Shown: positions 3,215 to 44,992 of the stretch, piece after piece
Layout of the letters: every line of letters starts with the position of its first letter
How positions within the stretch are numbered: the first letter of the stretch is position 1
Assembly (NCBI GenBank): GCA_921293015.1
Contig: OV121087.1
Span: forward strand, 36,687,235-36,751,234
DNA from: Phorcus lineatus
Lineage: Eukaryota > Mollusca > Gastropoda > Trochida > Trochidae
Direction of reading: 5' to 3'
Length of the DNA stretch: 64,000 bases
Made by a program: the position numbers and the translations under genes
The notes under the pieces: model-generated
What the model was told of the DNA's origin: nothing
The model's database searches: none
What the model saw: only the letters and a program-made list of their open reading frames with translations

Positions 3215-3244
3215 ACTTTTACAAAAGTGTATGTAGCAGAGCGT

Positions 3245-3255
3245 GGTTTCGATCC
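3245..3255 (-). promoter_or_regulatory. Internal B box of tRNA-iMet (copy 1; repeated in every unit)
   Basis: GGATCGAAACC on the minus strand is the initiator form of the B box (general consensus GGTTCGANTCC). It overlaps the T loop that carries A54 and A60. The truncated copy 127 keeps this box but lacks the A box. Confidence 0.85.
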
Positions 3256-3287
3256 ACGGACCTCTGGGTTATGGGCCCAGCACGCTT

Positions 3288-3298
3288 CCACTGCGCCA
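3288..3298 (-). promoter_or_regulatory. Internal A box of tRNA-iMet (copy 1; repeated in every unit)
   Basis: TGGCGCAGTGG on the minus strand fits the eukaryotic A-box consensus TRGYNNARNGG bound by TFIIIC. It recurs at the same offset in all full-length copies except where variant copies are described. Confidence 0.85.
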
Positions 3299-3541
3299 CT
3301 CTGCTCCTCTCTTTCATTAGGCGCAAAACAAAGCCTAGACCATTAAAAATCAACTATTTCTCTTACAATGGGCAACTGCTTCCTTACTTAGTCCAAATTT
3401 CATTGAAGTTATTGTTCCCTTTATTCTTGTTGACTAATCATTTTCATTCAAGTCTTTTTTTGGCGAATTTGGATTATATACTTTGAGATAGGTTTTTGTC
3501 TGGCGAATTTCAAGACTAATTTCATGTTTGCAAAGATTGAA

Positions 3542-3557
3542 AAATACTTTTACAAAA
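3542..3557 (-). terminator. RNA polymerase III terminator, duplicated T-run (copy 2; repeated in every unit)
   Basis: Seven nucleotides after the tRNA 3' end (trailer CATACAC) the minus strand reads TTTT. A short hairpin, ACTTTT-GT-AAAAGT, contains this run, and a second run of five or six T follows. T4 or longer is the standard Pol III stop, so each unit has a primary and a back-up terminator. Copy 1 has only the first. Confidence 0.75.
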
Positions 3558-6500
3558 GTGTATGTAGCAGAGCGTGGTTTCGATCCACGGACCTCTGGGT
3601 TATGGGCCCAGCACGCTTCCACTGCGCCACTCTGCTCCTCTCTTTCATTAGGCGCAAAACAAAGCCTAGACCATTAAAAATCAACTATTTCTCTTACAAT
3701 GGGCAACTGCTTCCTTACTTAGTCCAAATTTCATTGAAGTTATTGTTCCCTTTATTCTTGTTGACTAATCATTTTCATTCAAGTCTTTTTTTGGCGAATT
3801 TGGATTATATACTTTGAGATAGGTTTTTGTCTGGCGAATTTCAAGACTAATTTCATGTTTGCAAAGATTAAAAAATACTTTTACAAAAGTGTATGTAGCA
3901 GAGCGTGGTTTCGATCCACGGACCTCTGGGTTATGGGCCCAGCACGCTTCCACTGCGCCACTCTGCTCCTCTCTTTCATTAGGTGCAAAACAAAGCCTAG
4001 ACCATTAAAAATCAACTATTTCTCTTACAATGGGCAACTGCTTCCTTACTTAGTCCAAATTTCATTGAAGTTATTGTTCCCTTTATTCTTGTTGACTAAT
4101 CATTTTCATTCAAGTCTTTTTTTGGCGAATTTGGATTATATACTTTGAGATAGGTTTTTGTCTGGCGAATTTCAAGACTAATTTCATGTTTGCAAAGATT
4201 AAAAAATACTTTTACAAAAGTGTATGTAGCAGAGCGTGGTTTCGATCCACGGACCTCTGGGTTATGGGCCCAGCACGCTTCCACTGCGCCACTCTGCTCC
4301 TCTCTTTCATTAGGCGCAAAACAAAGCCTAGACCATTAAAAATCAACTATTTCTCTTACAATGGGCAACTGCTTCCTTACTTAGTCCAAATTTCATTGAA
4401 GTTATTGTTCCCTTTATTCTTGTTGACTAATCATTTTCATTCAAGTCTTTTTTTGGCGAATTTGGATTATATACTTTGAGATAGGTTTTTGTCTGGCGAA
4501 TTTCAAGACTAATTTCATGTTTGCAAAGATTGAAAAATACTTTTACAAAAGTGTATGTAGCAGAGCGTGGTTTCGATCCACGGACCTCTGGGTTATGGGC
4601 CCAGCACGCTTCCACTGCGCCACTCTGCTCCTCTCTTTCATTAGGCGCAAAACAAAGCCTAGACCATTAAAAATCAACTATTTCTCTTACAATGGGCAAC
4701 TGCTTCCTTACTTAGTCCAAATTTCATTGAAGTTATTGTTCCCTTTATTCTTGTTGACTAATCATTTTCATTCAAGTCTTTTTTTGGCGAATTTGGATTA
4801 TATACTTTGAGATAGGTTTTTGTCTGGCGAATTTCAAGACTAATTTCATGTTTGCAAAGATTAAAAAATACTTTTACAAAAGTGTATGTAGCAGAGCGTG
4901 GTTTCGATCCACGGACCTCTGGGTTATGGGCCCAGCACGCTTCCACTGCGCCACTCTGCTCCTCTCTTTCATTAGGTGCAAAACAAAGCCTAGACCATTA
5001 AAAATCAACTATTTCTCTTACAATGGGCAACTGCTTCCTTACTTAGTCCAAATTTCATTGAAGTTATTGTTCCCTTTATTCTTGTTGACTAATCATTTTC
5101 ATTCAAGTCTTTTTTTGGCGAATTTGGATTATATACTTTGAGATAGGTTTTTGTCTGGCGAATTTCAAGACTAATTTCATGTTTGCAAAGATTAAAAAAT
5201 ACTTTTACAAAAGTGTATGTAGCAGAGCGTGGTTTCGATCCACGGACCTCTGGGTTATGGGCCCAGCACGCTTCCACTGCGCCACTCTGCTCCTCTCTTT
5301 CATTAGGCGCAAAACAAAGCCTAGACCATTAAAAATCAACTATTTCTCTTACAATGGGCAACTGCTTCCTTACTTAGTCCAAATTTCATTGAAGTTATTG
5401 TTCCCTTTATTCTTGTTGACTAATCATTTTCATTCAAGTCTTTTTTTGGCGAATTTGGATTATATACTTTGAGATAGGTTTTTGTCTGGCGAATTTCAAG
5501 ACTAATTTCATGTTTGCAAAGATTAAAAAATACTTTTACAAAAGTGTATGTAGCAGAGCGTGGTTTCGATCCACGGACCTCTGGGTTATGGGCCCAGCAC
5601 GCTTCCACTGCGCCACTCTGCTCCTCTCTTTCATTAGGCGCAAAACAAAGCCTAGACCATTAAAAATCAACTATTTCTCTTACAATGGGCAACTGCTTCC
5701 TTACTTAGTCCAAATTTCATTGAAGTTATTGTTCCCTTTATTCTTGTTGACTAATCATTTTCATTCAAGTCTTTTTTTGGCGAATTTGGATTATATACTT
5801 TGAGATAGGTTTTTGTCTGGCGAATTTCAAGACTAATTTCATGTTTGCAAAGATTAAAAAATACTTTTACAAAAGTGTATGTAGCAGAGCGTGGTTTCGA
5901 TCCACGGACCTCTGGGTTATGGGCCCAGCACGCTTCCACTGCGCCACTCTGCTCCTCTCTTTCATTAGGCGCAAAACAAAGCCTAGACCATTAAAAATCA
6001 ACTATTTCTCTTACAATGGGCAACTGTTTCTTTACTTAGTCCAAATTTCATTGAAGTTATTGTTCCCTTTATTCTTGTTGACTAATCATTTTCATTCAAG
6101 TCTTTTTTTGGCGAATTTGGATTATATACTTTGAGATAGGTTTTTGTCTGGCGAATTTCAAGACTAATTTCATGTTTGCAAAGATTAAAAAATACTTTTA
6201 CAAAAGTGTATGTAGCAGAGCGTGGTTTCGATCCACGGACCTCTGGGTTATGGGCCCAGCACGCTTCCACTGCGCCACTCTGCTCCTCTCTTTCATTAGG
6301 CGCAAAACAAAGCCTAGACCATTAAAAATCAACTATTTCTCTTACAATGGGCAACTGCTTCCTTACTTAGTCCAAATTTCATTGAAGTTATTGTTCCCTT
6401 TATTCTTGTTGACTAATCATTTTCATTCAAGTCTTTTTTTGGCGAATTTGGATTATATACTTTGAGATAGGTTTTTGTCTGGCGAATTTCAAGACTAATT

Positions 6501-9500
6501 TCATGTTTGCAAAGATTAAAAAATACTTTTACAAAAGTGTATGTAGCAGAGCGTGGTTTCGATCCACGGACCTCTGGGTTATGGGCCCAGCACGCTTCCA
6601 CTGCGCCACTCTGCTCCTCTCTTTCATTAGGTGCAAAACAAAGCCTAGACCATTAAAAATCAACTATTTCTCTTACAATGGGCAACTGCTTCCTTACTTA
6701 GTCCAAATTTCATTGAAGTTATTGTTCCCTTTATTCTTGTTGACTAATCATTTTCATTCAAGTCTTTTTTTGGCGAATTTGGATTATATACTTTGAGATA
6801 GGTTTTTGTCTGGCGAATTTCAAGACTAATTTCATGTTTGCAAAGATTAAAAAATACTTTTACAAAAGTGTATGTAGCAGAGCGTGGTTTCGATCCACGG
6901 ACCTCTGGGTTATGGGCCCAGCACGCTTCCACTGCGCCACTCTGCTCCTCTCTTTCATTAGGCGCAAAACAAAGCCTAGACCATTAAAAATCAACTATTT
7001 CTCTTACAATGGGCAACTGCTTCCTTACTTAGTCCAAATTTCATTGAAGTTATTGTTCCCTTTATTCTTGTTGACTAATCATTTTCATTCAAGTCTTTTT
7101 TTGGCGAATTTGGATTATATACTTTGAGATAGGTTTTTGTCTGGCGAATTTCAAGACTAATTTCATGTTTGCAAAGATTGAAAAATACTTTTACAAAAGT
7201 GTATGTAGCAGAGCGTGGTTTCGATCCACGGACCTCTGGGTTATGGGCCCAGCACGCTTCCACTGCGCCACTCTGCTCCTCTCTTTCATTAGGCGCAAAA
7301 CAAAGCCTAGACCATTAAAAATCAACTATTTCTCTTACAATGGGCAACTGCTTCCTTACTTAGTCCAAATTTCATTGAAGTTATTGTTCCCTTTATTCTT
7401 GTTGACTAATCATTTTCATTCAAGTCTTTTTTTGGCGAATTTGGATTATATACTTTGAGATAGGTTTTTGTCTGGCGAATTTCAAGACTAATTTCATGTT
7501 TGCAAAGATTAAAAAATACTTTTACAAAAGTGTATGTAGCAGAGCGTGGTTTCGATCCACGGACCTCTGGGTTATGGGCCCAGCACGCTTCCACTGCGCC
7601 ACTCTGCTCCTCTCTTTCATTAGGTGCAAAACAAAGCCTAGACCATTAAAAATCAACTATTTCTCTTACAATGGGCAACTGCTTCCTTACTTAGTCCAAA
7701 TTTCATTGAAGTTATTGTTCCCTTTATTCTTGTTGACTAATCATTTTCATTCAAGTCTTTTTTTGGCGAATTTGGATTATATACTTTGAGATAGGTTTTT
7801 GTCTGGCGAATTTCAAGACTAATTTCATGTTTGCAAAGATTAAAAAATACTTTTACAAAAGTGTATGTAGCAGAGCGTGGTTTCGATCCACGGACCTCTG
7901 GGTTATGGGCCCAGCACGCTTCCACTGCGCCACTCTGCTCCTCTCTTTCATTAGGCGCAAAACAAAGCCTAGACCATTAAAAATCAACTATTTCTCTTAC
8001 AATGGGCAACTGCTTCCTTACTTAGTCCAAATTTCATTGAAGTTATTGTTCCCTTTATTCTTGTTGACTAATCATTTTCATTCAAGTCTTTTTTTGGCGA
8101 ATTTGGATTATATACTTTGAGATAGGTTTTTGTCTGGCGAATTTCAAGACTAATTTCATGTTTGCAAAGATTAAAAAATACTTTTACAAAAGTGTATGTA
8201 GCAGAGCGTGGTTTCGATCCACGGACCTCTGGGTTATGGGCCCAGCACGCTTCCACTGCGCCACTCTGCTCCTCTCTTTCATTAGGCGCAAAACAAAGCC
8301 TAGACCATTAAAAATCAACTATTTCTCTTACAATGGGCAACTGCTTCCTTACTTAGTCCAAATTTCATTGAAGTTATTGTTCCCTTTATTCTTGTTGACT
8401 AATCATTTTCATTCAAGTCTTTTTTTGGCGAATTTGGATTATATACTTTGAGATAGGTTTTTGTCTGGCGAATTTCAAGACTAATTTCATGTTTGCAAAG
8501 ATTAAAAAATACTTTTACAAAAGTGTATGTAGCAGAGCGTGGTTTCGATCCACGGACCTCTGGGTTATGGGCCCAGCACGCTTCCACTGCGCCACTCTGC
8601 TCCTCTCTTTCATTAGGCGCAAAACAAAGCCTAGACCATTAAAAATCAACTATTTCTCTTACAATGGGCAACTGTTTCTTTACTTAGTCCAAATTTCATT
8701 GAAGTTATTGTTCCCTTTATTCTTGTTGACTAATCATTTTCATTCAAGTCTTTTTTTGGCGAATTTGGATTATATACTTTGAGATAGGTTTTTGTCTGGC
8801 GAATTTCAAGACTAATTTCATGTTTGCAAAGATTAAAAAATACTTTTACAAAAGTGTATGTAGCAGAGCGTGGTTTCGATCCACGGACCTCTGGGTTATG
8901 GGCCCAGCACGCTTCCACTGCGCCACTCTGCTCCTCTCTTTCATTAGGCGCAAAACAAAGCCTAGACCATTAAAAATCAACTATTTCTCTTACAATGGGC
9001 AACTGCTTCCTTACTTAGTCCAAATTTCATTGAAGTTATTGTTCCCTTTATTCTTGTTGACTAATCATTTTCATTCAAGTCTTTTTTTGGCGAATTTGGA
9101 TTATATACTTTGAGATAGGTTTTTGTCTGGCGAATTTCAAGACTAATTTCATGTTTGCAAAGATTGAAAAATACTTTTACAAAAGTGTATGTAGCAGAGC
9201 GTGGTTTCGATCCACGGACCTCTGGGTTATGGGCCCAGCACGCTTCCACTGCGCCACTCTGCTCCTCTCTTTCATTAGGCGCAAAACAAAGCCTAGACCA
9301 TTAAAAATCAACTATTTCTCTTACAATGGGCAACTGCTTCCTTACTTAGTCCAAATTTCATTGAAGTTATTGTTCCCTTTATTCTTGTTGACTAATCATT
9401 TTCATTCAAGTCTTTTTTTGGCGAATTTGGATTATATACTTTGAGATAGGTTTTTGTCTGGCGAATTTCAAGACTAATTTCATGTTTGCAAAGATTAAAA

Positions 9501-11177
9501 AATACTTTTACAAAAGTGTATGTAGCAGAGCGTGGTTTCGATCCACGGACCTCTGGGTTATGGGCCCAGCACGCTTCCACTGCGCCACTCTGCTCCTCTC
9601 TTTCATTAGGTGCAAAACAAAGCCTAGACCATTAAAAATCAACTATTTCTCTTACAATGGGCAACTGCTTCCTTACTTAGTCCAAATTTCATTGAAGTTA
9701 TTGTTCCCTTTATTCTTGTTGACTAATCATTTTCATTCAAGTCTTTTTTTGGCGAATTTGGATTATATACTTTGAGATAGGTTTTTGTCTGGCGAATTTC
9801 AAGACTAATTTCATGTTTGCAAAGATTAAAAAATACTTTTACAAAAGTGTATGTAGCAGAGCGTGGTTTCGATCCACGGACCTCTGGGTTATGGGCCCAG
9901 CACGCTTCCACTGCGCCACTCTGCTCCTCTCTTTCATTAGGCGCAAAACAAAGCCTAGACCATTAAAAATCAACTATTTCTCTTACAATGGGCAACTGCT
10001 TCCTTACTTAGTCCAAATTTCATTGAAGTTATTGTTCCCTTTATTCTTGTTGACTAATCATTTTCATTCAAGTCTTTTTTTGGCGAATTTGGATTATATA
10101 CTTTGAGATAGGTTTTTGTCTGGCGAATTTCAAGACTAATTTCATGTTTGCAAAGATTAAAAAATACTTTTACAAAAGTGTATGTAGCAGAGCGTGGTTT
10201 CGATCCACGGACCTCTGGGTTATGGGCCCAGCACGCTTCCACTGCGCCACTCTGCTCCTCTCTTTCATTAGGTGCAAAACAAAGCCTAGACCATTAAAAA
10301 TCAACTATTTCTCTTACAATGGGCAACTGCTTCCTTACTTAGTCCAAATTTCATTGAAGTTATTGTTCCCTTTATTCTTGTTGACTAATCATTTTCATTC
10401 AAGTCTTTTTTTGGCGAATTTGGATTATATACTTTGAGATAGGTTTTTGTCTGGCGAATTTCAAGACTAATTTCATGTTTGCAAAGATTAAAAAATACTT
10501 TTACAAAAGTGTATGTAGCAGAGCGTGGTTTCGATCCACGGACCTCTGGGTTATGGGCCCAGCACGCTTCCACTGCGCCACTCTGCTCCTCTCTTTCATT
10601 AGGTGCAAAACAAAGCCTAGACCATTAAAAATCAACTATTTCTCTTACAATGGGCAACTGCTTCCTTACTTAGTCCAAATTTCATTGAAGTTATTGTTCC
10701 CTTTATTCTTGTTGACTAATCATTTTCATTCAAGTCTTTTTTTGGCGAATTTGGATTATATACTTTGAGATAGGTTTTTGTCTGGCGAATTTCAAGACTA
10801 ATTTCATGTTTGCAAAGATTAAAAAATACTTTTACAAAAGTGTATGTAGCAGAGCGTGGTTTCGATCCACGGACCTCTGGGTTATGGGCCCAGCACGCTT
10901 CCACTGCGCCACTCTGCTCCTCTCTTTCATAAGGCGCAAAACAAAGCCTAGACCATTAAAAATCAACTATTTCTCTTACAATGGGCAACTGCTTCCTTAC
11001 TTAGTCCAAATTTCATTGAAGTTATTGTTCCCTTTATTCTTGTTGACTAATCATTTTCATTCAAGTCTTTTTTTGGCGAATTTGGATTATATACTTTGAG
11101 ATAGGTTTTTGTCTGGCGAATTTCAAGACTAATTTCATGTTTGCAAAGATTAAAAAATACTTTTACAAAAGTGTATG

Positions 11178-11249
11178 TAGCAGAGCGTGGTTTCGATCCA
11201 CGGACCTCTGGGTTATGGGCCCAGCACGCTTCCAGTGCGCCACTCTGCT
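11178..11249 (-). tRNA. tRNA-iMet copy 25, G15 to C
   Basis: One substitution at 11235 changes G15 to C. This breaks the G15:C48 Levitt pair that joins the D and variable regions and also alters the A box. The gene may be weakened, but all stems are intact. Confidence 0.85.
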
Positions 11250-12832
11250 CCTCTCTTTCATTAGGCGCAAAACAAAGCCTAGACCATTAAAAATCAACTA
11301 TTTCTCTTACAATGGGCAACTGTTTCTTTACTTAGTCCAAATTTCATTGAAGTTATTGTTCCCTTTATTCTTGTTGACTAATCATTTTCATTCAAGTCTT
11401 TTTTTGGCGAATTTGGATTATATACTTTGAGATAGGTTTTTGTCTGGCGAATTTCAAGACTAATTTCATGTTTGCAAAGATTAAAAAATACTTTTACAAA
11501 AGTGTATGTAGCAGAGCGTGGTTTCGATCCACGGACCTCTGGGTTATGGGCCCAGCACGCTTCCACTGCGCCACTCTGCTCCTCTCTTTCATTAGGCGCA
11601 AAACAAAGCCTAGACCATTAAAAATCAACTATTTCTCTTACAATGGGCAACTGCTTCCTTACTTAGTCCAAATTTCATTGAAGTTATTGTTCCCTTTATT
11701 CTTGTTGACTAATCATTTTCATTCAAGTCTTTTTTTGGCGAATTTGGATTATATACTTTGAGATAGGTTTTTGTCTGGCGAATTTCAAGACTAATTTCAT
11801 GTTTGCAAAGATTAAAAAATACTTTTACAAAAGTGTATGTAGCAGAGCGTGGTTTCGATCCACGGACCTCTGGGTTATGGGCCCAGCACGCTTCCACTGC
11901 GCCACTCTGCTCCTCTCTTTCATTAGGCGCAAAACAAAGCCTAGACCATTAAAAATCAACTATTTCTCTTACAAGGGGCAACTGCTTCCTTACTTAGTCC
12001 AAATTTCATTGAAGTTATTGTTCCCTTTATTCTTGTTGACTAATCATTTTCATTCAAGTCTTTTTTTGGCGAATTTGGATTATATACTTTGAGATAGGTT
12101 TTTGTCTGGCGAATTTCAAGACTAATTTCATGTTTGCAAAGATTAAAAAATACTTTTACAAAAGTGTATGTAGCAGAGCGTGGTTTCGATCCACGGACCT
12201 CTGGGTTATGGGCCCAGCACGCTTCCACTGCGCCACTCTGCTCCTCTCTTTCATTAGGCGCAAAACAAAGCCTAGACCATTAAAAATCAACTATTTCTCT
12301 TACAATGGGCAACTGTTTCTTTACTTAGTCCAAATTTCATTGAAGTTATTGTTCCCTTTATTCTTGTTGACTAATCATTTTCATTCAAGTCTTTTTTTGG
12401 CGAATTTGGATTATATACTTTGAGATAGGTTTTTGTCTGGCGAATTTCAAGACTAATTTCATGTTTGCAAAGATTAAAAAATACTTTTACAAAAGTGTAT
12501 GTAGCAGAGCGTGGTTTCGATCCACGGACCTCTGGGTTATGGGCCCAGCACGCTTCCACTGCGCCACTCTGCTCCTCTCTTCCATTAGGCGCAAAACAAA
12601 GCCTAGACCATTAAAAATCAACTATTTCTCTTACAAGGGGCAACTGCTTCCTTACTTAGTCCAAATTTCATTGAAGTTATTGTTCCCTTTATTCTTGTTG
12701 ACTAATCATTTTCATTCAAGTCTTTTTTTGGCGAATTTGGATTATATACTTTGAGATAGGTTTTTGTCTGGCGAATTTCAAGACTAATTTCATGTTTGCA
12801 AAGATTAAAAAATACTTTTACAAAAGTGTATG

Positions 12833-12904
12833 TAGCAGAGCGTGGTTTCGATCCACGGACCTCTGGGTTATTGGCCCAGCACGCTTCCACTGCGCCACTC
12901 TGCT
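12833..12904 (-). tRNA. tRNA-iMet copy 30 with anticodon changed from CAU to AAU
   Basis: A single change at 12872 turns C34 into A, so the anticodon reads AAU, which would pair with the isoleucine codon AUU. The initiator body (A1:U72, G:C anticodon pairs, A54/A60) is otherwise intact. Methionyl-tRNA synthetase depends strongly on the CAU anticodon, so this copy is probably not charged with methionine. Whether it is expressed is unknown. Confidence 0.85.
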
Positions 12905-13825
12905 CCTCTCTTTCATTAGGCGCAAAACAAAGCCTAGACCATTAAAAATCAACTATTTCTCTTACAATGGGCAACTGTTTCTTTACTTAGTCCAAATTTC
13001 ATTGAAGTTATTGTTCCCTTTATTCTTGTTGACTAATCATTTTCATTCAAGTCTTTTTTTGGCGAATTTGGATTATATACTTTGAGATAGGTTTTTGTCT
13101 GGCGAATTTCAAGACTAATTTCATGTTTGCAAAGATTGAAAAATACTTTTACAAAAGTGTATGTAGCAGAGCGTGGTTTCGATCCACGGACCTCTGGGTT
13201 ATGGGCCCAGCACGCTTCCACTGCGCCACTCTGCTCCTCTCTTTCATTAGGTGCAAAACAAAGCCTAGACCATTAAAAATCAACTATTTCTCTTACAATG
13301 GGCAACTGCTTCCTTACTTAGTCCAAATTTCATTGAAGTTATTGTTCCCTTTATTCTTGTTGACTAATCATTTTCATTCAAGTCTTTTTTTGGCGAATTT
13401 GGATTATATACTTTGAGATAGGTTTTTGTCTGGCGAATTTCAAGACTAATTTCATGTTTGCAAAGATTAAAAAATACTTTTACAAAAGTGTATGTAGCAG
13501 AGCGTGGTTTCGATCCACGGACCTCTGGGTTATGGGCCCAGCACGCTTCCACTGCGCCACTCTGCTCCTCTCTTTCATTAGGCGCAAAACAAAGCCTAGA
13601 CCATTAAAAATCAACTATTTCTCTTACAATGGGCAACTGCTTCCTTACTTAGTCCAAATTTCATTGAAGTTATTGTTCCCTTTATTCTTGTTGACTAATC
13701 ATTTTCATTCAAGTCTTTTTTTGGCGAATTTGGATTATATACTTTGAGATAGGTTTTTGTCTGGCGAATTTCAAGACTAATTTCATGTTTGCAAAGATTG
13801 AAAAATACTTTTACAAAAGTGTATG

Positions 13826-13897
13826 TAGCAGAGCGTGGTTTCGATCCACGGACCTCTGGGTTATGGGCATAGCACGCTTCCACTGCGCCACTCTGCT
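13826..13897 (-). pseudogene. tRNA-iMet copy 33, anticodon stem broken
   Basis: Two adjacent changes at 13869 and 13870 turn G30 into T and G29 into A. They destroy two of the three G:C pairs that the ribosome inspects in initiator tRNAs (29:41 and 30:40). This copy is likely non-functional as an initiator. Confidence 0.75.
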
Positions 13898-31700: not shown

Positions 31701-32690
31701 CAGAGCGTGGTTTCGATCCACGGACCTCTGGGTTATGGGCCCAGCACGCTTCCACTGCGCCACTCTGCTCCTCTCTTTCATTAGGCGCAAAACAAAGCCT
31801 AGACCATTAAAAATCAACTATTTCTCTTACAAGGGGCAACTGCTTCCTTACTTAGTCCAAATTTCATTGAAGTTATTGTTCCCTTTATTCTTGTTGACTA
31901 ATCATTTTCATTCAAGTCTTTTTTTGGCGAATTTGGATTATATACTTTGAGATAGGTTTTTGTCTGGCGAATTTCAAGACTAATTTCATGTTTGCAAAGA
32001 TTAAAAAATACTTTTACAAAAGTGTATGTAGCAGAGCGTGGTTTCGATCCACGGACCTCTGGGTTATGGGCCCAGCACGCTTCCACTGCGCCACTCTGCT
32101 CCTCTCTTTCATTAGGCGCAAAACAAAGCCTAGACCATTAAAAATCAACTATTTATCTTACAATGGGCAACTGCTTCCTTACTTAGTCCAAATTTCATTG
32201 AAGTTATTGTTCCCTTTATTCTTGTTGACTAATCATTTTCATTCAAGTCTTTTTTTGGCGAATTTGGATTATATACTTTGAGATAGGTTTTTGTCTGGCG
32301 AATTTCAAGACTAATTTCATGTTTGCAAAGATTAAAAAATACTTTTACAAAAGTGTATGTAGCAGAGCGTGGTTTCGATCCACGGACCTCTGGGTTATGG
32401 GCCCAGCACGCTTCCACTGCGCCACTCTGCTCCTCTCTTTCATTAGGCGCAAAACAAAGCCTAGACCATTAAAAATCAACTATTTCTCTTACAATGGGCA
32501 ACTGCTTCCTTACTTAGTCCAAATTTCATTGAAGTTATTGTTCCCTTTATTCTTGTTGACTAATCATTTTCATTCAAGTCTTTTTTTGGCGAATTTGGAT
32601 TATATACTTTGAGATAGGTTTTTGTCTGGCGAATTTCAAGACTAATTTCATGTTTGCAAAGATTGAAAAATACTTTTACAAAAGTGTATG

Positions 32691-32762
32691 TAGCAGAGCG
32701 TGGTTTCGATCCAGGGACCTCTGGGTTATGGGCCCAGCACGCTTCCACTGCGCCACTCTGCT
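32691..32762 (-). tRNA. tRNA-iMet copy 90, G50 to C
   Basis: The change at 32714 makes a C50/C64 clash in the T stem. The unit also belongs to the four-unit higher-order block with a shortened T-run in its spacer. Confidence 0.8.
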
Positions 32763-35667
32763 CCTCTCTTTCATTAGGCGCAAAACAAAGCCTAGACCAT
32801 TAAAAATCAACTATTTCTCTTACAATGGGCAACTGCTTCCTTACTTAGTCCAAATTTCATTGAAGTTATTGTTCCCTTTATTCTTGTTGACTAATCATTT
32901 TCATTCAAGTCTTTTTTGGCGAATTTGGATTATATACTTTGAGATAGGTTTTTGTCTGGCGAATTTCAAGACTAATTTCATGTTTGCAAAGATTAAAAAA
33001 TACTTTTACAAAAGTGTATGTAGCAGAGCGTGGTTTCGATCCACGGACCTCTGGGTTATGGGCCCAGCACGCTTCCACTGCGCCACTCTGCTCCTCTCTT
33101 TCATTAGGCGCAAAACAAAGCCTAGACCATTAAAAATCAACTATTTCTCTTACAAGGGGCAACTGCTTCCTTACTTAGTCCAAATTTCATTGAAGTTATT
33201 GTTCCCTTTATTCTTGTTGACTAATCATTTTCATTCAAGTCTTTTTTTGGCGAATTTGGATTATATACTTTGAGATAGGTTTTTGTCTGGCGAATTTCAA
33301 GACTAATTTCATGTTTGCAAAGATTAAAAAATACTTTTACAAAAGTGTATGTAGCAGAGCGTGGTTTCGATCCACGGACCTCTGGGTTATGGGCCCAGCA
33401 CGCTTCCACTGCGCCACTCTGCTCCTCTCTTTCATTAGGCGCAAAACAAAGCCTAGACCATTAAAAATCAACTATTTATCTTACAATGGGCAACTGCTTC
33501 CTTACTTAGTCCAAATTTCATTGAAGTTATTGTTCCCTTTATTCTTGTTGACTAATCATTTTCATTCAAGTCTTTTTTTGGCGAATTTGGATTATATACT
33601 TTGAGATAGGTTTTTGTCTGGCGAATTTCAAGACTAATTTCATGTTTGCAAAGATTAAAAAATACTTTTACAAAAGTGTATGTAGCAGAGCGTGGTTTCG
33701 ATCCACGGACCTCTGGGTTATGGGCCCAGCACGCTTCCACTGCGCCACTCTGCTCCTCTCTTTCATTAGGCGCAAAACAAAGCCTAGACCATTAAAAATC
33801 AACTATTTCTCTTACAATGGGCAACTGCTTCCTTACTTAGTCCAAATTTCATTGAAGTTATTGTTCCCTTTATTCTTGTTGACTAATCATTTTCATTCAA
33901 GTCTTTTTTGGCGAATTTGGATTATATACTTTGAGATAGGTTTTTGTCTGGCGAATTTCAAGACTAATTTCATGTTTGCAAAGATTAAAAAATACTTTTA
34001 CAAAAGTGTATGTAGCAGAGCGTGGTTTCGATCCACGGACCTCTGGGTTATGGGCCCAGCACGCTTCCACTGCGCCACTCTGCTCCTCTCTTTCATTAGG
34101 CGCAAAACAAAGCCTAGACCATTAAAAATCAACTATTTCTCTTACAAGGGGCAACTGCTTCCTTACTTAGTCCAAATTTCATTGAAGTTATTGTTCCCTT
34201 TATTCTTGTTGACTAATCATTTTCATTCAAGTCTTTTTTTGGCGAATTTGGATTATATACTTTGAGATAGGTTTTTGTCTGGCGAATTTCAAGACTAATT
34301 TCATGTTTGCAAAGATTAAAAAATACTTTTACAAAAGTGTATGTAGCAGAGCGTGGTTTCGATCCACGGACCTCTGGGTTATGGGCCCAGCACGCTTCCA
34401 CTGCGCCACTCTGCTCCTCTCTTTCATTAGGCGCAAAACAAAGCCTAGACCATTAAAAATCAACTATTTCTCTTACAAGGGGCAACTGCTTCCTTACTTA
34501 GTCCAAATTTCATTGAAGTTATTGTTCCCTTTATTCTTGTTGACTAATCATTTTCATTCAAGTCTTTTTTTGGCGAATTTGGATTATATACTTTGAGATA
34601 GGTTTTTGTCTGGCGAATTTCAAGACTAATTTCATGTTTGCAAAGATTAAAAAATACTTTTACAAAAGTGTATGTAGCAGAGCGTGGTTTCGATCCACGG
34701 ACCTCTGGGTTATGGGCCCAGCACGCTTCCACTGCGCCACTCTGCTCCTCTCTTTCATTAGGCGCAAAACAAAGCCTAGACCATTAAAAATCAACTATTT
34801 CTCTTACAATGGGCAACTGTTTCCTTACTTAGTCCAAATTTCAATGAAGTTATTGTTCCCTTTATTCTTGTTGACTAATCATTTTCATTCAAGTCTTTTT
34901 TTGGCGAATTTGGATTATATACTTTGAGATAGGTTTTTGTCTGGCGAATTTCAAGACTAATTTCATGTTTGCAAAGATTGAAAAATACTTTTACAAAAGT
35001 ATATGTAGCAGAGCGTGGTTTCGATCCACGGACCTCTGGGTTATGGGCCCAGCACGCTTCCACTGCGCCACTCTGCTCCTCTCTTTCATTAGGCGCAAAA
35101 CAAAGCCTAGACCATTAAAAATCAACTATTTCTCTTACAAGGGGCAACTGCTTCCTTACTTAGTCCAAATTTCATTGAAGTTATTGTTCCCTTTATTCTT
35201 GTTGACTAATCATTTTCATTCAAGTCTTTTTTTGGCGAATTTGGATTATATACTTTGAGATAGGTTTTTGTCTGGCGAATTTCAAGACTAATTTCATGTT
35301 TGCAAAGATTAAAAAATACTTTTACAAAAGTGTATGTAGCAGAGCGTGGTTTCGATCCACGGACCTCTGGGTTATGGGCCCAGCACGCTTCCACTGCGCC
35401 ACTCTGCTCCTCTCTTTCATTAGGCGCAAAACAAAGCCTAGACCATTAAAAATCAACTATTTCTCTTACAATGGGCAACTGCTTCCTTACTTAGTCCAAA
35501 TTTCATTGAAGTTATTGTTCCCTTTATTCTTGTTGACTAATCATTTTCATTCAAGTCTTTTTTTGGCGAATTTGGATTATATACTTTGAGATAGTTTTTT
35601 GTCTGGCGAATTTCAAGACTAATTTCATGTTTGCAAAGATTAAAAAATACTTTTACAAAAGTGTATG

Positions 35668-35739
35668 TAGCATAGCGTGGTTTCGATTCACGGACCTCTG
35701 GGTTATGGGCCCAGCACGCTTCCACTGCGCCACTCTGCT
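35668..35739 (-). pseudogene. tRNA-iMet copy 99, acceptor- and T-stem mutations
   Basis: Two substitutions: 35673 turns C68 into A (breaks G5:C68 in the acceptor stem) and 35688 turns G53 into A (breaks the conserved G53:C61 pair). With two stems damaged this copy is probably inactive. Confidence 0.7.
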
Positions 35740-35998
35740 CCTCTCTTTCATTAGGCGCAAAACAAAGCCTAGACCATTAAAAATCAACTATTTCTCTTAC
35801 AAGGGGCAACTGCTTCCTTACTTAGTCCAAATTTCATTGAAGTTATTGTTCCCTTTATTCTTGTTGACTAATCATTTTCATTCAAGTCTTTTTTTGGCGA
35901 ATTTGGATTATATACTTTGAGATAGGTTTTTGTCTGGCGAATTTCAAGACTAATTTCATGTTTGCAAAGATTAAAAAATACTTTTACAAAAGTGTATG

Positions 35999-36070
35999 TA
36001 GCAGAGCGTGGTTTCGATTCACGGACCTCTGGGTTATGGGCCCAGCACGCTTCCACTGCGCCACTCTGCT
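35999..36070 (-). tRNA. tRNA-iMet copy 100, G53 to A
   Basis: Shares the G53A change with copies 99, 105 and 107. It breaks the conserved G53:C61 pair that closes the T loop and lies in the B box. Confidence 0.8.
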
Positions 36071-37653
36071 CCTCTCTTTCATTAGGCGCAAAACAAAGCC
36101 TAGACCATTAAAAATCAACTATTTCTCTTACAAGGGGCAACTGCTTCCTTACTTAGTCCAAATTTCATTGAAGTTATTGTTCCCTTTATTCTTGTTGACT
36201 AATCATTTTCATTCAAGTCTTTTTTTGGCGAATTTGGATTATATACTTTGAGATAGGTTTTTGTCTGGCGAATTTCAAGACTAATTTCATGTTTGCAAAG
36301 ATTAAAAAATACTTTTACAAAAGTGTATGTAGCAGAGCGTGGTTTCGATCCACGGACCTCTGGGTTATGGGCCCAGCACGCTTCCACTGCGCCACTCTGC
36401 TCCTCTCTTTCATTAGGCGCAAAACAAAGCCTAGACCATTAAAAATCAACTATTTCTCTTACAAGGGGTAACTGCTTCCTTACTTAGTCCAAATTTCATT
36501 GAAGTTATTGTTCCCTTTATTCTTGTTGACTAATCATTTTCATTCAAGTCTTTTTTTGGCGAATTTGGATTATATACTTTGAGATAGTTTTTTGTCTGGC
36601 GAATTTCAAGACTAATTTCATGTTTGCAAAGATTAAAAAATACTTTTACAAAAGTGTATGTAGCAGAGCGTGGTTTCGATCCACGGACCTCTGGGTTATG
36701 GGCCCAGCACGCTTCCACTGCGCCACTCTGCTCCTCTCTTTCATTAGGCGCAAAACAAAGCCTAGACCATTAAAAATCAACTATTTCTCTTACAATGGGC
36801 AACTGCTTCCTTACTTAGTCCAAATTTCATTGAAGTTATTGTTCCCTTTATTCTTGTTGACTAATCATTTTCATTCAAGTCTTTTTTTGGCGAATTTGGA
36901 TTATATACTTTGAGATAGGTTTTTGTCTGGCGAATTTCAAGACTAATTTCATGTTTGCAAAGATTAAAAAATACTTTTACAAAAGTGTATGTAGCAGAGC
37001 GTGGTTTCGATCCACGGACCTCTGGGTTATGGGCCCAGCACGCTTCCACTGCGCCACTCTGCTCCTCTCTTTCATTAGGCGCAAAACAAAGCCTAGACCA
37101 TTAAAAATCAACTATTTCTCTTACAATGGGCAACTGCTTCCTTACTTAGTCCAAATTTCATTGAAGTTATTGTTCCCTTTATTCTTGTTGACTAATCATT
37201 TTCATTCAAGTCTTTTTTTGGCGAATTTGGATTATATACTTTGAGATAGGTTTTTGTCTGGCGAATTTCAAGACTAATTTCATGTTTGCAAAGATTAAAA
37301 AATACTTTTACAAAAGTGTATGTAGCAGAGCGTGGTTTCGATCCACGGACCTCTGGGTTATGGGCCCAGCACGCTTCCACTGCGCCACTCTGCTCCTCTC
37401 TTTCATTAGGCGCAAAACAAAGCCTAGACCATTAAAAATCAACTATTTCTCTTACAATGGGCAACTGCTTCCTTACTTAGTCCAAATTTCATTGAAGTTA
37501 TTGTTCCCTTTATTCTTGTTGACTAATCATTTTCATTCAAGTCTTTTTTTGGCGAATTTGGATTATATACTTTGAGATAGTTTTTTGTCTGGCGAATTTC
37601 AAGACTAATTTCATGTTTGCAAAGATTAAAAAATACTTTTACAAAAGTGTATG

Positions 37654-37725
37654 TAGCAGAGCGTGGTTTCGATTCACGGACCTCTGGGTTATGGGCCCAG
37701 CACGCTTCCACTGCGCCACTCTGCT
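37654..37725 (-). tRNA. tRNA-iMet copy 105, G53 to A
   Basis: Carries the same T-stem-closing-pair variant as copy 100. The spacer just before it on the plus strand has the GATAGTTTTTTG marker, as do those preceding copies 99 and 107. Confidence 0.8.
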
Positions 37726-38315
37726 CCTCTCTTTCATTAGGCGCAAAACAAAGCCTAGACCATTAAAAATCAACTATTTCTCTTACAATGGGCAACTGCT
37801 TCCTTACTTAGTCCAAATTTCATTGAAGTTATTGTTCCCTTTATTCTTGTTGACTAATCATTTTCATTCAAGTCTTTTTTTGGCGAATTTGGATTATATA
37901 CTTTGAGATAGGTTTTTGTCTGGCGAATTTCAAGACTAATTTCATGTTTGCAAAGATTAAAAAATACTTTTACAAAAGTGTATGTAGCAGAGCGTGGTTT
38001 CGATCCACGGACCTCTGGGTTATGGGCCCAGCACGCTTCCACTGCGCCACTCTGCTCCTCTCTTTCATTAGGCGCAAAACAAAGCCTAGACCATTAAAAA
38101 TCAACTATTTCTCTTACAATGGGCAACTGCTTCCTTACTTAGTCCAAATTTCATTGAAGTTATTGTTCCCTTTATTCTTGTTGACTAATCATTTTCATTC
38201 AAGTCTTTTTTTGGCGAATTTGGATTATATACTTTGAGATAGTTTTTTGTCTGGCGAATTTCAAGACTAATTTCATGTTTGCAAAGATTAAAAAATACTT
38301 TTACAAAAGTGTATG

Positions 38316-38387
38316 TAGCAGAGCGTGGTTTCGATTCACGGACCTCTGGGTTATGGGCCCAGCACGCTTCCACTGCGCCACTCTGCT
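38316..38387 (-). tRNA. tRNA-iMet copy 107, G53 to A
   Basis: Fourth G53A copy, two units from copy 105 and in an identical spacer-marker context, so the two probably arose by a two-unit duplication. Confidence 0.8.
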
Positions 38388-41300
38388 CCTCTCTTTCATT
38401 AGGCGCAAAACAAAGCCTAGACCATTAAAAATCAACTATTTCTCTTACAATGGGCAACTGCTTCCTTACTTAGTCCAAATTTCATTGAAGTTATTGTTCC
38501 CTTTATTCTTGTTGACTAATCATTTTCATTCAAGTCTTTTTTTGGCGAATTTGGATTATATACTTTGAGATAGGTTTTTGTCTGGCGAATTTCAAGACTA
38601 ATTTCATGTTTGCAAAGATTGAAAAATACTTTTACAAAAGTGTATGTAGCAGAGCGTGGTTTCGATCCACGGACCTCTGGGTTATGGGCCCAGCACGCTT
38701 CCACTGCGCCACTCTGCTCCTCTCTTTCATTAGGCGCAAAACAAAGCCTAGACCATTAAAAATCAACTATTTCTCTTACAATGGGCAACTGCTTCCTTAC
38801 TTAGTCCAAATTTCATTGAAGTTATTGTTCCCTTTATTCTTGTTGACTAATCATTTTCATTCAAGTCTTTTTTTGGCGAATTTGGATTATACACTTTGAG
38901 ATAGGTTTTTGTCTGGCGAATTTCAAGACTAATTTCATGTTTGCAAAGATTGAAAAATACTTTTACAAAAGTGTATGTAGCAGAGCGTGGTTTCGATCCA
39001 CGGACCTCTGGGTTATGGGCCCAGCACGCTTCCACTGCGCCACTCTGCTCCTCTCTTTCATTAGGCGCAAAACAAAGCCTAGACCATTAAAAATCAACTA
39101 TTTCTCTTACAATGGGCAACTGCTTCCTTACTTAGTCCAAATTTCATTGAAGTTATTGTTCCCTTTATTCTTGTTGACTAATCATTTTCATTCAAGTTCT
39201 TTTTTTGGCGAATTTGGATTATATACTTTGAGATAGGTTTTTGTCTGGCGAATTTCAAGACTAATTTCATGTTTGCAAAGATTAAAAAATACTTTTACAA
39301 AAGTGTATGTAGCAGAGCGTGGTTTCGATCCACGGACCTCTGGGTTATGGGCCCAGCACGCTTCCACTGCGCCACTCTGCTCATCTCTTTCATTAGGCGC
39401 AAAACAAAGCCTAGACCATTAAAAATCAACTATTTCTCTTACAATGGGCAACTGTTTCTTTACTTAGTCCAAATTTCATTGAAGTTATTGTTCCCTTTAT
39501 TCTTGTTGACTAATCATTTTCATTCAAGTCTTTTTTTGGCGAATTTGGATTATATACTTTGAGATAGGTTTTTGTCTGGCGAATTTCAAGACTAATTTCA
39601 TGTTTGCAAAGATTAAAAAATACTTTTACAAAAGTGTATGTAGCAGAGCGTGGTTTCGATCCACGGACCTCTGGGTTATGGGCCCAGCACGCTTCCACTG
39701 CGCCACTCTGCTCCTCTCTTTCATTAGGCGCAAAACAAAGCCTAGACCATTAAAAATCAACTATTTCTCTTACAAGGGGCAACTGCTTCCTTACTTAGTC
39801 CAAATTTCATTGAAGTTATTGTTCCCTTTATTCTTGTTGACTAATCATTTTCATTCAAGTCTTTTTTTGGCGAATTTGGATTATATACTTTGAGATAGGT
39901 TTTTGTCTGGCGAATTTCAAGACTAATTTCATGTTTGCAAAGATTAAAAAATACTTTTACAAAAGTGTATGTAGCAGAGCGTGGTTTCGATCCACGGACC
40001 TCTGGGTTATGGGCCCAGCACGCTTCCACTGCGCCACTCTGCTCCTCTCTTTCATTAGGCGCAAAACAAAGCCTAGACCATTAAAAATCAACTATTTCTC
40101 TTACAATGGGCAACTGCTTCCTTACTTAGTCCAAATTTCATTGAAGTTATTGTTCCCTTTATTCTTGTTGACTAATCATTTTCATTCAAGTCTTTTTTTG
40201 GCGAATTTGGATTATATACTTTGAGATAGGTTTTTGTCTGGCGAATTTCAAGACTAATTTCATGTTTGCAAAGATTAAAAAATACTTTTACAAAAGTGTA
40301 TGTAGCAGAGCGTGGTTTCGATCCACGGACCTCTGGGTTATGGGCCCAGCACGCTTCCACTGCGCCACTCTGCTCCTCTCTTTCATTAGGCGCAAAACAA
40401 AGCCTAGACCATTAAAAATCAACTATTTCTCTTACAATGGGCAACTGCTTCCTTACTTAGTCCAAATTTCATTGAAGTTATTGTTCCCTTTATTCTTGTT
40501 GACTAATCATTTTCATTCAAGTTCTTTTTTTGGCGAATTTGGATTATATACTTTGAGATAGGTTTTTGTCTGGCGAATTTCAAGACTAATTTCATGTTTG
40601 CAAAGATTAAAAAATACTTTTACAAAAGTGTATGTAGCAGAGCGTGGTTTCGATCCACGGACCTCTGGGTTATGGGCCCAGCACGCTTCCACTGCGCCAC
40701 TCTGCTCATCTCTTTCATTAGGCGCAAAACAAAGCCTAGACCATTAAAAATCAACTATTTCTCTTACAATGGGCAACTGTTTCTTTACTTAGTCCAAATT
40801 TCATTGAAGTTATTGTTCCCTTTATTCTTGTTGACTAATCATTTTCATTCAAGTCTTTTTTTGGCGAATTTGGATTATATACTTTGAGATAGGTTTTTGT
40901 CTGGCGAATTTCAAGACTAATTTCATGTTTGCAAAGATTAAAAAATACTTTTACAAAAGTGTATGTAGCAGAGCGTGGTTTCGATCCACGGACCTCTGGG
41001 TTATGGGCCCAGCACGCTTCCACTGCGCCACTCTGCTCCTCTCTTTCATTAGGCGCAAAACAAAGCCTAGACCATTAAAAATCAACTATTTCTCTTACAA
41101 GGGGCAACTGCTTCCTTACTTAGTCCAAATTTCATTGAAGTTATTGTTCCCTTTATTCTTGTTGACTAATCATTTTCATTCAAGTCTTTTTTTGGCGAAT
41201 TTGGATTATATACTTTGAGATAGGTTTTTGTCTGGCGAATTTCAAGACTAATTTCATGTTTGCAAAGATTAAAAAATACTTTTACAAAAGTGTATGTAGC

Positions 41301-42621
41301 AGAGCGTGGTTTCGATCCACGGACCTCTGGGTTATGGGCCCAGCACGCTTCCACTGCGCCACTCTGCTCCTCTCTTTCATTAGGCGCAAAACAAAGCCTA
41401 GACCATTAAAAATCAACTATTTATCTTACAATGGGCAACTGCTTCCTTACTTAGTCCAAATTTCATTGAAGTTATTGTTCCCTTTATTCTTGTTGACTAA
41501 TCATTTTCATTCAAGTCTTTTTTTGGCGAATTTGGATTATATACTTTGAGATAGGTTTTTGTCTGGCGAATTTCAAGACTAATTTCATGTTTGCAAAGAT
41601 TAAAAAATACTTTTACAAAAGTGTATGTAGCAGAGCGTGGTTTCGATCCACGGACCTCTGGGTTATGGGCCCAGCACGCTTCCACTGCGCCACTCTGCTC
41701 CTCTCTTTCATTAGGCGCAAAACAAAGCCTAGACCATTAAAAATCAACTATTTCTCTTACAATGGGCAACTGCTTCCTTACTTAGTCCAAATTTCATTGA
41801 AGTTATTGTTCCCTTTATTCTTGTTGACTAATCATTTTCATTCAAGTTCTTTTTTTGGCGAATTTGGATTATATACTTTGAGATAGGTTTTTGTCTGGCG
41901 AATTTCAAGACTAATTTCATGTTTGCAAAGATTAAAAAATACTTTTACAAAAGTGTATGTAGCAGAGCGTGGTTTCGATCCACGGACCTCTGGGTTATGG
42001 GCCCAGCACGCTTCCACTGCGCCACTCTGCTCCTCTCTTTCATTAGGCGCAAAACAAAGCCTAGACCATTAAAAATCAACTATTTATCTTACATTGGGCA
42101 ACTGCTTCCTTACTTAGTCCAAATTTCATTGAAGTTATTGTTCCCTTTATTCTTGTTGACTAATCATTTTCATTCAAGTCTTTTTTTGGCGAATTTGGAT
42201 TATATACTTTAAGATAGGTTTTTGTCTGGCGAATTTCAAGACTAATTTCATGTTTGCAAAGATTAAAAAATACTTTTACAAAAGTGTATGTAGCAGAGCG
42301 TGGTTTCGATCCACGGACCTCTGGGTTATGGGCCCAGCACGCTTCCACTGCGCCACTCTGCTCCTCTCTTTCATTAGGCGCAAAACAAAGCCTAGACCAT
42401 TAAAAATCAACTATTTCTCTTACAATGGGCAACTGCTTCCTTACTTAGTCCAAATTTCATTGAAGTTATTGTTCCCTTTATTCTTGTTGACTAATCATTT
42501 TCATTCAAGTCTTTTTTTGGCGAATTTGGATTATATACTTTGAGATAGGTTTTTGTCTGGCGAATTTCAAGACTAATTTCATGTTTGCAAAGATTGAAAA
42601 ATACTTTTACAAAAGTGTATG

Positions 42622-42693
42622 TAGCAGAGCGTGGTTTCGATCCACAGACCTCTGGGTTATGGGCCCAGCACGCTTCCACTGCGCCACTCTGCT
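42622..42693 (-). tRNA. tRNA-iMet copy 120, C49 to U
   Basis: The change at 42646 turns the C49:G65 pair into a U:G wobble, so the fold should be kept. Confidence 0.85.
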
Positions 42694-42952
42694 CCTCTCT
42701 TTCATTAGGCGCAAAACAAAGCCTAGACCATTAAAAATCAACTATTTCTCTTACAATGGGCAACTGCTTCCTTACTTAGTCCAAATTTCATTGAAGTTAT
42801 TGTTCCCTTTATTCTTGTTGACTAATCATTTTCATTCAAGTCTTTTTTTGGCGAATTTGGATTATATACTTTGAGATAGTTTTTTGTCTGGCGAATTTCA
42901 AGACTAATTTCATGTTTGCAAAGATTAAAAAATACTTTTACAAAAGTGTATG

Positions 42953-43024
42953 TAGCAGAGCGTGGTTTCGATCCACGGACCTCTGGGTTATGGGCCCAGC
43001 ACGTTTCCACTGCGCCACTCTGCT
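42953..43024 (-). tRNA. tRNA-iMet copy 121, G22 to A
   Basis: The change at 43004 makes a C13/A22 mismatch at the end of the D stem. Confidence 0.8.
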
Positions 43025-44938
43025 CCTCTCTTTCATTAGGCGCAAAACAAAGCCTAGACCATTAAAAATCAACTATTTCTCTTACAAGGGGCAACTGCTT
43101 CCTTACTTAGTCCAAATTTCATTGAAGTTATTGTTCCCTTTATTCTTGTTGACTAATCATTTTCATTCAAGTCTTTTTTTGGCGAATTTGGATTATATAC
43201 TTTGAGATAGTTTTTTGTCTGGCGAATTTCAAGACTAATTTCATGTTTGCAAAGATTAAAAAATACTTTTACAAAAGTGTATGTAGCAGAGCGTGGTTTC
43301 GATCCACGGACCTCTGGGTTATGGGCCCAGCACGCTTCCACTGCGCCACTCTGCTCCTCTCTTTCATTAGGCGCAAAACAAAGCCTAGACCATTAAAAAT
43401 CAACTATTTCTCTTACAAGGGGCAACTGCTTCCTTACTTAGTCCAAATTTCATTGAAGTTATTGTTCCCTTTATTCTTGTTGACTAATCATTTTCATTCA
43501 AGTCTTTTTTTGGCGAATTTGGATTATATACTTTGAGATAGGTTTTTGTCTGGCGAATTTCAAGACTAATTTCATGTTTGCAAAGATTAAAAAATACTTT
43601 TACAAAAGTGTATGTAGCAGAGCGTGGTTTCGATCCACGGACCTCTGGGTTATGGGCCCAGCACGCTTCCACTGCGCCACTCTGCTCCTCTCTTTCATTA
43701 GGCGCAAAACAAAGCCTAGACCATTAAAAATCAACTATTTCTCTTACAATGGGCAACTGTTTCTTTACTTAGTCCAAATTTCAATGAAGTTATTGTTCCC
43801 TTTATTCTTGTTGACTAATCATTTTCATTCAAGTCTTTTTTTGGCGAATTTGGATTATATACTTTGAGATAGGTTTTTGTCTGGCGAATTTCAAGACTAA
43901 TTTCATGTTTGCAAAGATTAAAAAATACTTTTACAAAAGTATATGTAGCAGAGCGTGGTTTCGATCCACGGACCTCTGGGTTATGGGCCCAGCACGCTTC
44001 CACTGCGCCACTCTGCTCCTCTCTTTCATTAGGCGCAAAACAAAGCCTAGACCATTAAAAATCAACTATTTCTCTTACAAGGGGCAACTGCTTCCTTACT
44101 TAGTCCAAATTTCATTGAAGTTATTGTTCCCTTTATTCTTGTTGACTAATCATTTTCATTCAAGTCTTTTTTTGGCGAATTTGGATTATATACTTTGAGA
44201 TAGGTTTTTGTCTGGCGAATTTCAAGACTAATTTCATGTTTGCAAAGATTAAAAAATACTTTTACAAAAGTGTATGTAGCAGAGCGTGGTTTCGATCCAC
44301 GGACCTCTGGGTTATGGGCCCAGCACGCTTCCACTGCGCCACTCTGCTCCTCTCTTTCATTAGGCGCAAAACAAAGCCTAGACCATTAAAAATCAACTAT
44401 TTCTCTTACAAGGGGCAACTGCTTCCTTACTTAGTCCAAATTTCATTGAAGTTATTGTTCCCTTTATTCTTGTTGACTAATCATTTTCATTCAAGTCTTT
44501 TTTTGGCGAATTTGGATTATATACTTTGAGATAGGTTTTTGTCTGGCGAATTTCAAGACTAATTTCATGTTTGCAAAGATTAAAAAATACTTTTACAAAA
44601 GTGTATGTAGCAGAGCGTGGTTTCGATCCACGGACCTCTGGGTTATGGGCCCAGCACGCTTCCACTGCGCCACTCTGCTCCTCTCTTTCATTAGGCGCAA
44701 AACAAAGCCTAGACCATTAAAAATCAACTATTTCTCTTACAATGGGCAACTGCTTCCTTACTTAGTCCAAATTTCATTGAAGTTATTGTTCCCTTTATTC
44801 TTGTTGACTAATCATTTTCATTCAAGTCTTTTTTTGGCGAATTTGGATTATATACTTTGAGATAGGTTTTTGTCTGGCGAATTTCAAGACTAATTTCATG
44901 TTTGCAAAGATTAAAAAATACTTTTACAAAAGTGTATG

Positions 44939-44992
44939 TAGCAGAGCGTGGTTTCGATCCACGGACCTCTGGGTTATGGGCACAATACGCTT
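44939..44992 (-). pseudogene. tRNA-iMet copy 127, 5' end replaced by LINE
   Basis: The 3' two-thirds of the tRNA (T arm, variable region, anticodon arm) is present. Homology stops in the D loop at about 44992, where a LINE tail of seven A residues begins. Three substitutions at 44982, 44985 and 44986 alter the anticodon-stem side of the remnant. The acceptor 5' strand and most of the A box are gone, so this is a dead copy that marks the right end of the array. Confidence 0.9.

Follow-up and report, generated by a model that had tools for sequence, protein, structure and literature searches.

The 64,000 bp stretch of the Phorcus lineatus genome analyzed here, referred to as the window (C12:36687235-36751234 in the 958 Mb assembly), holds part of a tandem array of initiator tRNA-Met (iMet) genes together with insertions of a long interspersed element (LINE). 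Our analysis makes it very probable that this homogenized array, one of many tRNA gene arrays in the genome, is a habitat of a LINE family that enters the tRNA gene bodies of many isotypes. The anatomy of the array, the insertion sites and the domains of the LINE were demonstrated directly. With somewhat better than even confidence, we further propose that the LINE is isotype-blind and reads the internal RNA polymerase III (Pol III) promoter region (box A/D-arm), that tandem tRNA arrays are its obligate habitat, and that LINE and arrays may have shaped each other.

Five LINE insertions interrupt or end the array, namely I1 (5,372 bp), I2 (5,277 bp), I3 (5,285 bp), I4 (5,370 bp) and I5 (2,080 bp), of which I4 and I5 are in the window. 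In all five, the A-rich end, in tRNA-sense orientation, stands directly before AAGCG, i.e. tRNA nucleotide 20 onward, the nucleotide being the same each time. I4 (C12:36685079-36690448) contributes its 5' part to the window (1..3214, minus strand), its 3' end lying outside the window and inside an array tRNA gene. This part comprises, likewise on the minus strand, open reading frame (ORF) 1 with zinc knuckles (zf-CCHC; 1855..3036) and the N-terminal part of ORF2 with an apurinic-type endonuclease and the start of the reverse transcriptase (2..1858). The 5'-truncated and decayed I5 (44993..47072, minus strand) splits the tRNA gene of unit 127 at the common insertion nucleotide, only the 3' part of this gene being present, with three substitutions near the junction (44939..44992, minus strand). 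The Exo_endo_phos and RVT_1 domains of the LINE scored above the cut-off, and none of the long insertions (I1 to I4) has an uninterrupted ORF2. Named relatives of ORF2 come from Patella (42% identity) and Mytilus and, more weakly, from Latimeria and Telopea, and those of ORF1 from Channa and Lottia; the closest relatives of both reading frames are others. A view of the left and right LINEs of the window as unrelated was withdrawn, as the window holds non-overlapping parts of the two and the whole insertions are 75% identical.

A single old insertion multiplied by array duplication would explain the shared site without any targeting, and I1 and I4 do look like such a case, one probably being an array-duplication copy of the other: they are 99.9% identical, with a common 5' junction and a common target deletion of 258 bp. 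As an account of all five insertions this is exceedingly improbable, since I2 and I3 are 92% identical and have target duplications of 5 and 11 bp, respectively, I1 is about 77% identical to I2 or I3, I5 is 75–80% identical to the other insertions, and the 5' junctions differ among insertions. Moreover, other LINE copies reside in unrelated tRNA isotypes on many contigs. One nucleotide is shared by at least four separate insertion events.

A genome search with the 800 bp 3' end of the LINE, free of tRNA sequence, yielded 40 matches (the best 40 of 75 candidates were scored). L058, not a 3' end but the remaining half of the broken LINE to which L042 belongs, and L039, which runs into N, were left out, and the 38 evaluable 3' ends all run into tRNA genes (38/38). 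A second query, for which the best 40 of 75 candidates were likewise scored, gave 40 matches, 17 of them already in the first list; 11 of the 23 new places were fetched, and all 11 run into tRNA sequence as read by eye, with L087 checked against a Leu gene (78/81). Together with I5, which is in neither list and was added from the array comparison, 50/50 evaluable LINE 3' ends, the five of the array included, pass into tRNA genes. The flank starts at about nucleotide 20–24, just past box A, in 48 of the 50, and what most aligned targets have in common ahead of the cut is the end of box A (GG plus one to three bases). The targets comprise 18 anticodons for 14 amino acids when identified by BLAST or ARAGORN, and about 24 anticodons when those read by eye are included. 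Between the iMet copy I3 and copies in Phe, Trp and Arg-ACG genes, identity is 99.7% over 792–793 bp, which argues that one recent lineage enters several isotypes, and the near identity of copies in iMet, Phe, Trp and Arg genes points to recognition of a feature that tRNA genes share.

When compared by BLAST with the intact tRNA genes found in the fetched loci, 32/38 first-query ends could be placed. L032, L044 and L060 matched only a related gene (87%) and were read as tRNA-Trp, which was also the ARAGORN call when the flanks of L044 were joined. L038 and L047 agree at 96/99 and 97/99 positions with an intron-bearing gene that lies intact in the same locus, which we read as Leu-CAA and ARAGORN as Thr. 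Least firmly placed among the 38 are L035, one of the 32 and assigned via an 18 nt match only (Glu-TTC by eye; 27.0 bits with cmscan, below the 29-bit cut-off), and L054, with an intron-bearing Ile-TAT gene by eye. The count includes L055 and L080, LINE copies with their own 3' end cut short; about 400 bp of the LINE 3' end are missing from L055, yet it adjoins a tRNA-Pro gene at about nucleotide 23. L033 and L034 are two LINE copies in Arg-ACG genes (C19:30446127 and 30451553) whose 3' ends are 5,426 bp apart.

When 12 further 5' ends were sought, two readable target duplications were obtained, of about 10 bp (Trp) and about 12 bp (Arg-TCG), each next to the 5' half of the tRNA in question, and ARAGORN called tRNA-Trp and tRNA-Arg when the two uninterrupted target sites were reconstructed from the flanking sequences. 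As expected of a target-specific LINE, copies of different descent are inserted at one set position of a target present in many copies, and an endonuclease and a reverse transcriptase are present. Features of target-primed reverse transcription were found in the A-rich 3' ends, the 5'-truncated I5 and duplications of 5–12 bp in four cases, with none in I1 and I4. Judged by its sequence, the Phorcus LINE is well supported as a variant of the site-specific LINEs, whose defining features it shares and from which it differs in endonuclease type and would differ in isotype-blindness.

According to the mechanism that we propose, the apurinic-type endonuclease would nick tRNA genes in the D-arm, immediately beyond box A, and the poly(A) RNA of the LINE would be reverse transcribed at the nick, sometimes with a short target duplication. 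The element recognized would be one that the targets share, either the box A/D-arm DNA itself or a factor bound there. The array would grow and be locally homogenized by multi-unit block exchange, selection would keep most of its copies intact, and tandem redundancy would render LINE hits tolerable. Mutual shaping could then arise if insertions create a demand for redundancy and breaks feed unequal exchange.

Within the window, the array occupies positions 3215..44992 (minus strand) and consists of 126 full 331 bp units, with one iMet gene each, and part of unit 127. A preliminary description based on the letters of the stretch had already proposed 126 initiator tRNA genes in the same orientation, one per 331 bp, and this was confirmed independently: TRF, run on the window, found a period of 331 with 126.2 copies and 99% matches, an Rfam search returned 126 tRNA matches (RF00005), all of them minus-strand and confined to the array, and ARAGORN called 125 genes (124 with anticodon CAT and one with AAT), missing the copy at 35668. 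At the score of these matches chance is no issue. The gene-to-gene distances are 331 bp (118 times), 330 bp (four times) and 332 bp (three times). With this spacing the window array conforms to the definition of a homogeneous tDNA cluster, in which tRNA genes of one type have neighbors ≤1000 nt apart (PMC2888827). Applied strictly, the definition divides the whole array into five clusters because of the four long LINEs of >1000 nt.

Copy 1 (3234..3305, minus strand), identified by Rfam and feature scoring, has the reference sequence, with box A (TGGCGCAGTGG; 3288..3298), box B (GGATCGAAACC; 3245..3255) and a first Pol III terminator, T4, 7 nt past the gene (3223..3226), all on the minus strand. 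Eukaryotic initiator tRNAs carry A1:U72 and a GGG/CCC anticodon stem. They are also recognized by A20, A54, A60 and the absence of nucleotide 17 (PMC9362929). The full set of features scored by us (A1:U72, G29-31:C39-41, A20, A54, A60 and CAT) is present in 124/126 window copies and in 219/226 copies of the whole array, and nucleotide 17, as numbered by hand, is missing from the reference D-loop AGTGGAA. The gene sequence is identical in 110/126 window copies. Box A and box B are each exact in 121/126, a T4 terminator follows ≤15 nt downstream in 126/126, and T5 or more follows ≤40 nt downstream in 125. The array genes thus carry intact predicted Pol III signals, in agreement with the initial claim that most copies keep these signals and the initiator hallmarks. 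A northern probe for zebrafish iMet (PMC11417395) matches the window array 124 times. Two variants on the minus strand are copy 30 (12833..12904), with the anticodon AAT according to ARAGORN and copy comparison, and copy 33 (13826..13897), in which copy comparison revealed two changes in the G run of the anticodon stem.

The whole array extends past the window and covers C12:36634889-36732226, about 97 kb with 226 full gene copies. Of these, 196 are identical to the reference and 30 differ, and both boxes are exact in 215/226. The left edge at C12:36634889 is a degenerate unit, while at the right edge a 29 bp remnant of array spacer (unit columns 219–247, 93%; C12:36734307-36734335, 47073..47101 of the window, minus strand) lies past a LINE. 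An assignment of the first 24 window copies to the array interior (p 0.027) was superseded by the chromosome sequence itself. The region is highly repetitive and was judged from the assembly, and its copy number could have been inflated through misassembly. We consider this highly unlikely, because the 126 window copies fall into 37 unit haplotypes, no exact repeat in the window array is longer than 2,978 bp, sub-arrays among the 226 units have several private spacer variants, and both edges pass into unrelated sequence. Given the length of the longest exact repeat, reads of >3 kb could place every part of the window array.

Among the window units, 19 different runs of four successive haplotypes recur as compared to 1.1 expected in shuffles, and adjacent units are no closer than shuffled ones (2.04 versus 2.07 differences). 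Haplotype matches are in excess at lags 3, 5, 8, 11, 14, and 17 (max-over-lags p 0.0098), in which we see no more than a hint of block exchange. The recurring runs and the variants private to sub-arrays fit an exchange of multi-unit blocks.

Variants with at least five carriers were found for 0/20 in the tRNA gene versus 17/65 in the spacer over all 226 units (one-sided Fisher p 0.006; Mann–Whitney p 0.016), and gene-versus-spacer variant comparisons in the window alone gave p values of 0.027 and 0.07, and of 0.04. Purifying selection on the gene part is supported by these results, and the early impression that the array genes are kept largely intact is upheld, with weaker controls alongside. 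A tRNA-derived satellite or short interspersed element would have a decayed tRNA part, conserved no better than its remainder; this interpretation was rejected, since 196/226 genes are identical and gene variants occur in fewer copies than those of the spacer, the control being weak. Variable columns are denser in the gene plus about 20 bp (17/111 versus 18/221, one-sided p 0.037), a split that was chosen post hoc, and the density in the gene alone gave p 0.08 in the window. Transcription-associated mutagenesis is not claimed, nor is a strand asymmetry of the changes (p 0.11).

Several observations weigh against the interpretation of the array as a habitat of a tRNA-gene-targeting LINE whose copies are kept intact by selection. 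Both tRNA-His insertions lie off the common site, at nucleotides 10 and 14 (L046, L063), and I1 and I4 show the 258 bp target deletion without any target duplication. The pairs L030/L031, L033/L034, L049/L050, L051/L052, and I1/I4 look array-duplicated, so that independent events number fewer than 50. For each of the two LINE queries the best 40 of 75 candidates were scored, 12 of the 23 new places of the second are outside the count, several target isotypes were identified by eye only, and all LINE evidence comes from one genome. Regarding the other 10 of the 12 additional 5' ends, seven had no 5' match in the guessed stretch, one ran into N, one gave a weak match with a non-tRNA flank, and one showed a tRNA-Trp half without a clean duplication. 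As to selection, the tests are modest and the support is not overwhelming: when a 72 bp frame was slid along the unit, 37/331 positions (overlapping ones included) matched the low number of carriers per variable column of the gene, and non-consensus cells numbered 14 in one separate spacer frame as compared to 18 in the gene.

Evenly spaced tRNA genes for Phe, Arg, Glu, Gln, Pro, Thr, Leu, and Ile are present at other loci (L030–L037, L041–L056), where fewer His and Ala copies were seen. The spacings are 407 bp for Phe, 377 bp for Glu, 312 bp for Arg-TCT, 250 bp for Arg-TCG, 351 bp for Pro, and 362 bp for Leu-TAA, in addition to mixed units. These arrays were viewed over about 1.5 kb of flank around each LINE, and LINE positions are found in stretches of >100 kb, e.g. 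C37:13.34-13.48 and C5:33.43-33.54 Mb. A long tRNA gene region that contains LINE copies, C32:44644752-44751586, has the best-scoring tRNAs among the matches listed in an Rfam tRNA search of the genome, in which 63 of 82,836 loose candidates were scored and 54 listed and which gives no genome tRNA count. Given the evenly spaced copies of many other tRNAs, the idea that the initiator array is unique was rejected. The preliminary description had called a giant initiator-only array remarkable; its initiator identity and single isotype hold, whereas its exceptional status in this genome is not supported. LINEs entering the tRNA genes had gone unnoticed in that description. The initiator array is real, large and ordinary in kind for the P. 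lineatus genome.

With many isotypes arrayed, the iMet array can be explained without invoking a dose specific to the initiator. The array may tentatively be viewed as an amplifier of initiator tRNA acting mainly in oogenesis or the early embryo, with dispersed copies serving the soma. Such a role is consistent with the selection signal on the gene part and with the coexistence of arrayed and dispersed copies: at least nine more iMet genes of identical sequence lie between unrelated flanks, seven loosely clustered at C12:44.79-44.81 Mb and two alone. In zebrafish, repetitive regions are the source of the isodecoders of the egg and early embryo, and scattered genes supply the later ones (PMC11417395). 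However, many other isotypes are arrayed too, and the nine dispersed copies share the mature sequence of the array, so that no distinct oocyte isodecoder is seen. About equally likely, and just as tentative, is silent redundancy, in which neutral unequal exchange enlarged the arrays and most of their content is silenced, with some copies alone being of importance. In Arabidopsis, most tissues silence a tRNA cluster that is active in root cap cells (PMC12308677), and many arrayed Entamoeba copies may be inactive, as the authors suggest (PMC2652664). The 30/226 copies unlike the reference show that damaged copies occur, and the gene was not strongly set apart in the sliding-window control, whereas the rarity of tRNA variants relative to spacer variants and the exact boxes in 215/226 copies speak against silent redundancy.

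The seven clustered genes form a second loose iMet cluster at C12:44788001-44818000 (L016–L018). Truncated iMet pieces at C13:3080402 (L019) and C17:17224901 (L020) were considered as LINE insertions and rejected, as no LINE match was found in L016–L028. Both pieces are iMet 3' halves, CCA follows the C13 piece, and they may have been retroposed or represent the primer-binding site of another element. Six further iMet-like pieces (L023–L028, on C15, C17, C13, C11, C1, and C9) cover unit columns of about 30–97 with 89–97% identity and end in the T arm, and possibly belong to a tRNA-derived repeat. Scans of viral contigs for the spacer, tRNA and junction patterns and for the LINE ORF1 gave nothing, as did a genome-contig scan for the array tRNA.

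LINEs specific for tRNA genes have been reported, namely NeSL-1_TV (tRNA-Pro), LIN15_SM (tRNA-Arg), and LIN25_SM (tRNA-Glu) (PMC4640811). They resemble the Phorcus LINE in this specificity; in the available sections of that source, each is tied to one isotype and discussed with NeSL relatives of the restriction-like-endonuclease clade, whereas the Phorcus LINE encodes an apurinic-type endonuclease and targets at least 18 anticodons. The zebrafish elements Dewa, Mutsu, and Keno belong to the Tx1 clade. They are likewise site-specific LINEs in multicopy small-RNA genes, with Dewa, compared here by target and not by clade, inserting in the tRNA-Leu spacer and the Phorcus LINE inside the gene (PMC3706591). 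TRE5-A of Dictyostelium is also a LINE associated with tRNA genes, but lands near its targets via host DNA-binding proteins in contrast to the fixed intragenic position of the Phorcus LINE (PMC3706591). The Dada elements occupy specific sites inside tRNA and small nuclear RNA genes as well; unlike the Phorcus LINE, they are DNA transposons with specific genes for each family (PMC3706591). Judged from the available sections of PMC4640811 and PMC3706591, isotype-blind targeting appears to be new, no search aimed at it having been made.

Tandem tRNA arrays, some of them single-isotype, are known from Entamoeba, plants and animals, including zebrafish, Nematostella, Arabidopsis, maize, and other plants (PMC2652664, PMC2888827, PMC12652284, PMC11700998). 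According to the same sources, single-isotype examples are the Entamoeba G and H units, 27 tRNA-Pro genes in Arabidopsis and 28 tRNA-Ile genes in maize. Plant clusters contain up to 110 tRNA genes, and those of Nematostella and teleosts reach fifty or more. The Phorcus array is similar to these large and partly single-isotype clusters and differs in its 226 copies of the initiator alone; no initiator-only array like it was found in the open-licence literature searched.

As far as the available sections of PMC4640811 and PMC3706591 describe them, tRNA-targeting LINEs are isotype-tied or insert near the gene, and one multi-isotype lineage at one structural position would parallel R1 and R2 in the rDNA. 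The Phorcus LINE would thereby offer a natural system for testing by what means a LINE endonuclease locates a promoter element that is short and degenerate, and tandem tRNA arrays would be worth examining as refuges for such LINEs. Likewise, the purpose of hundreds of identical tRNA genes becomes a directly testable question.

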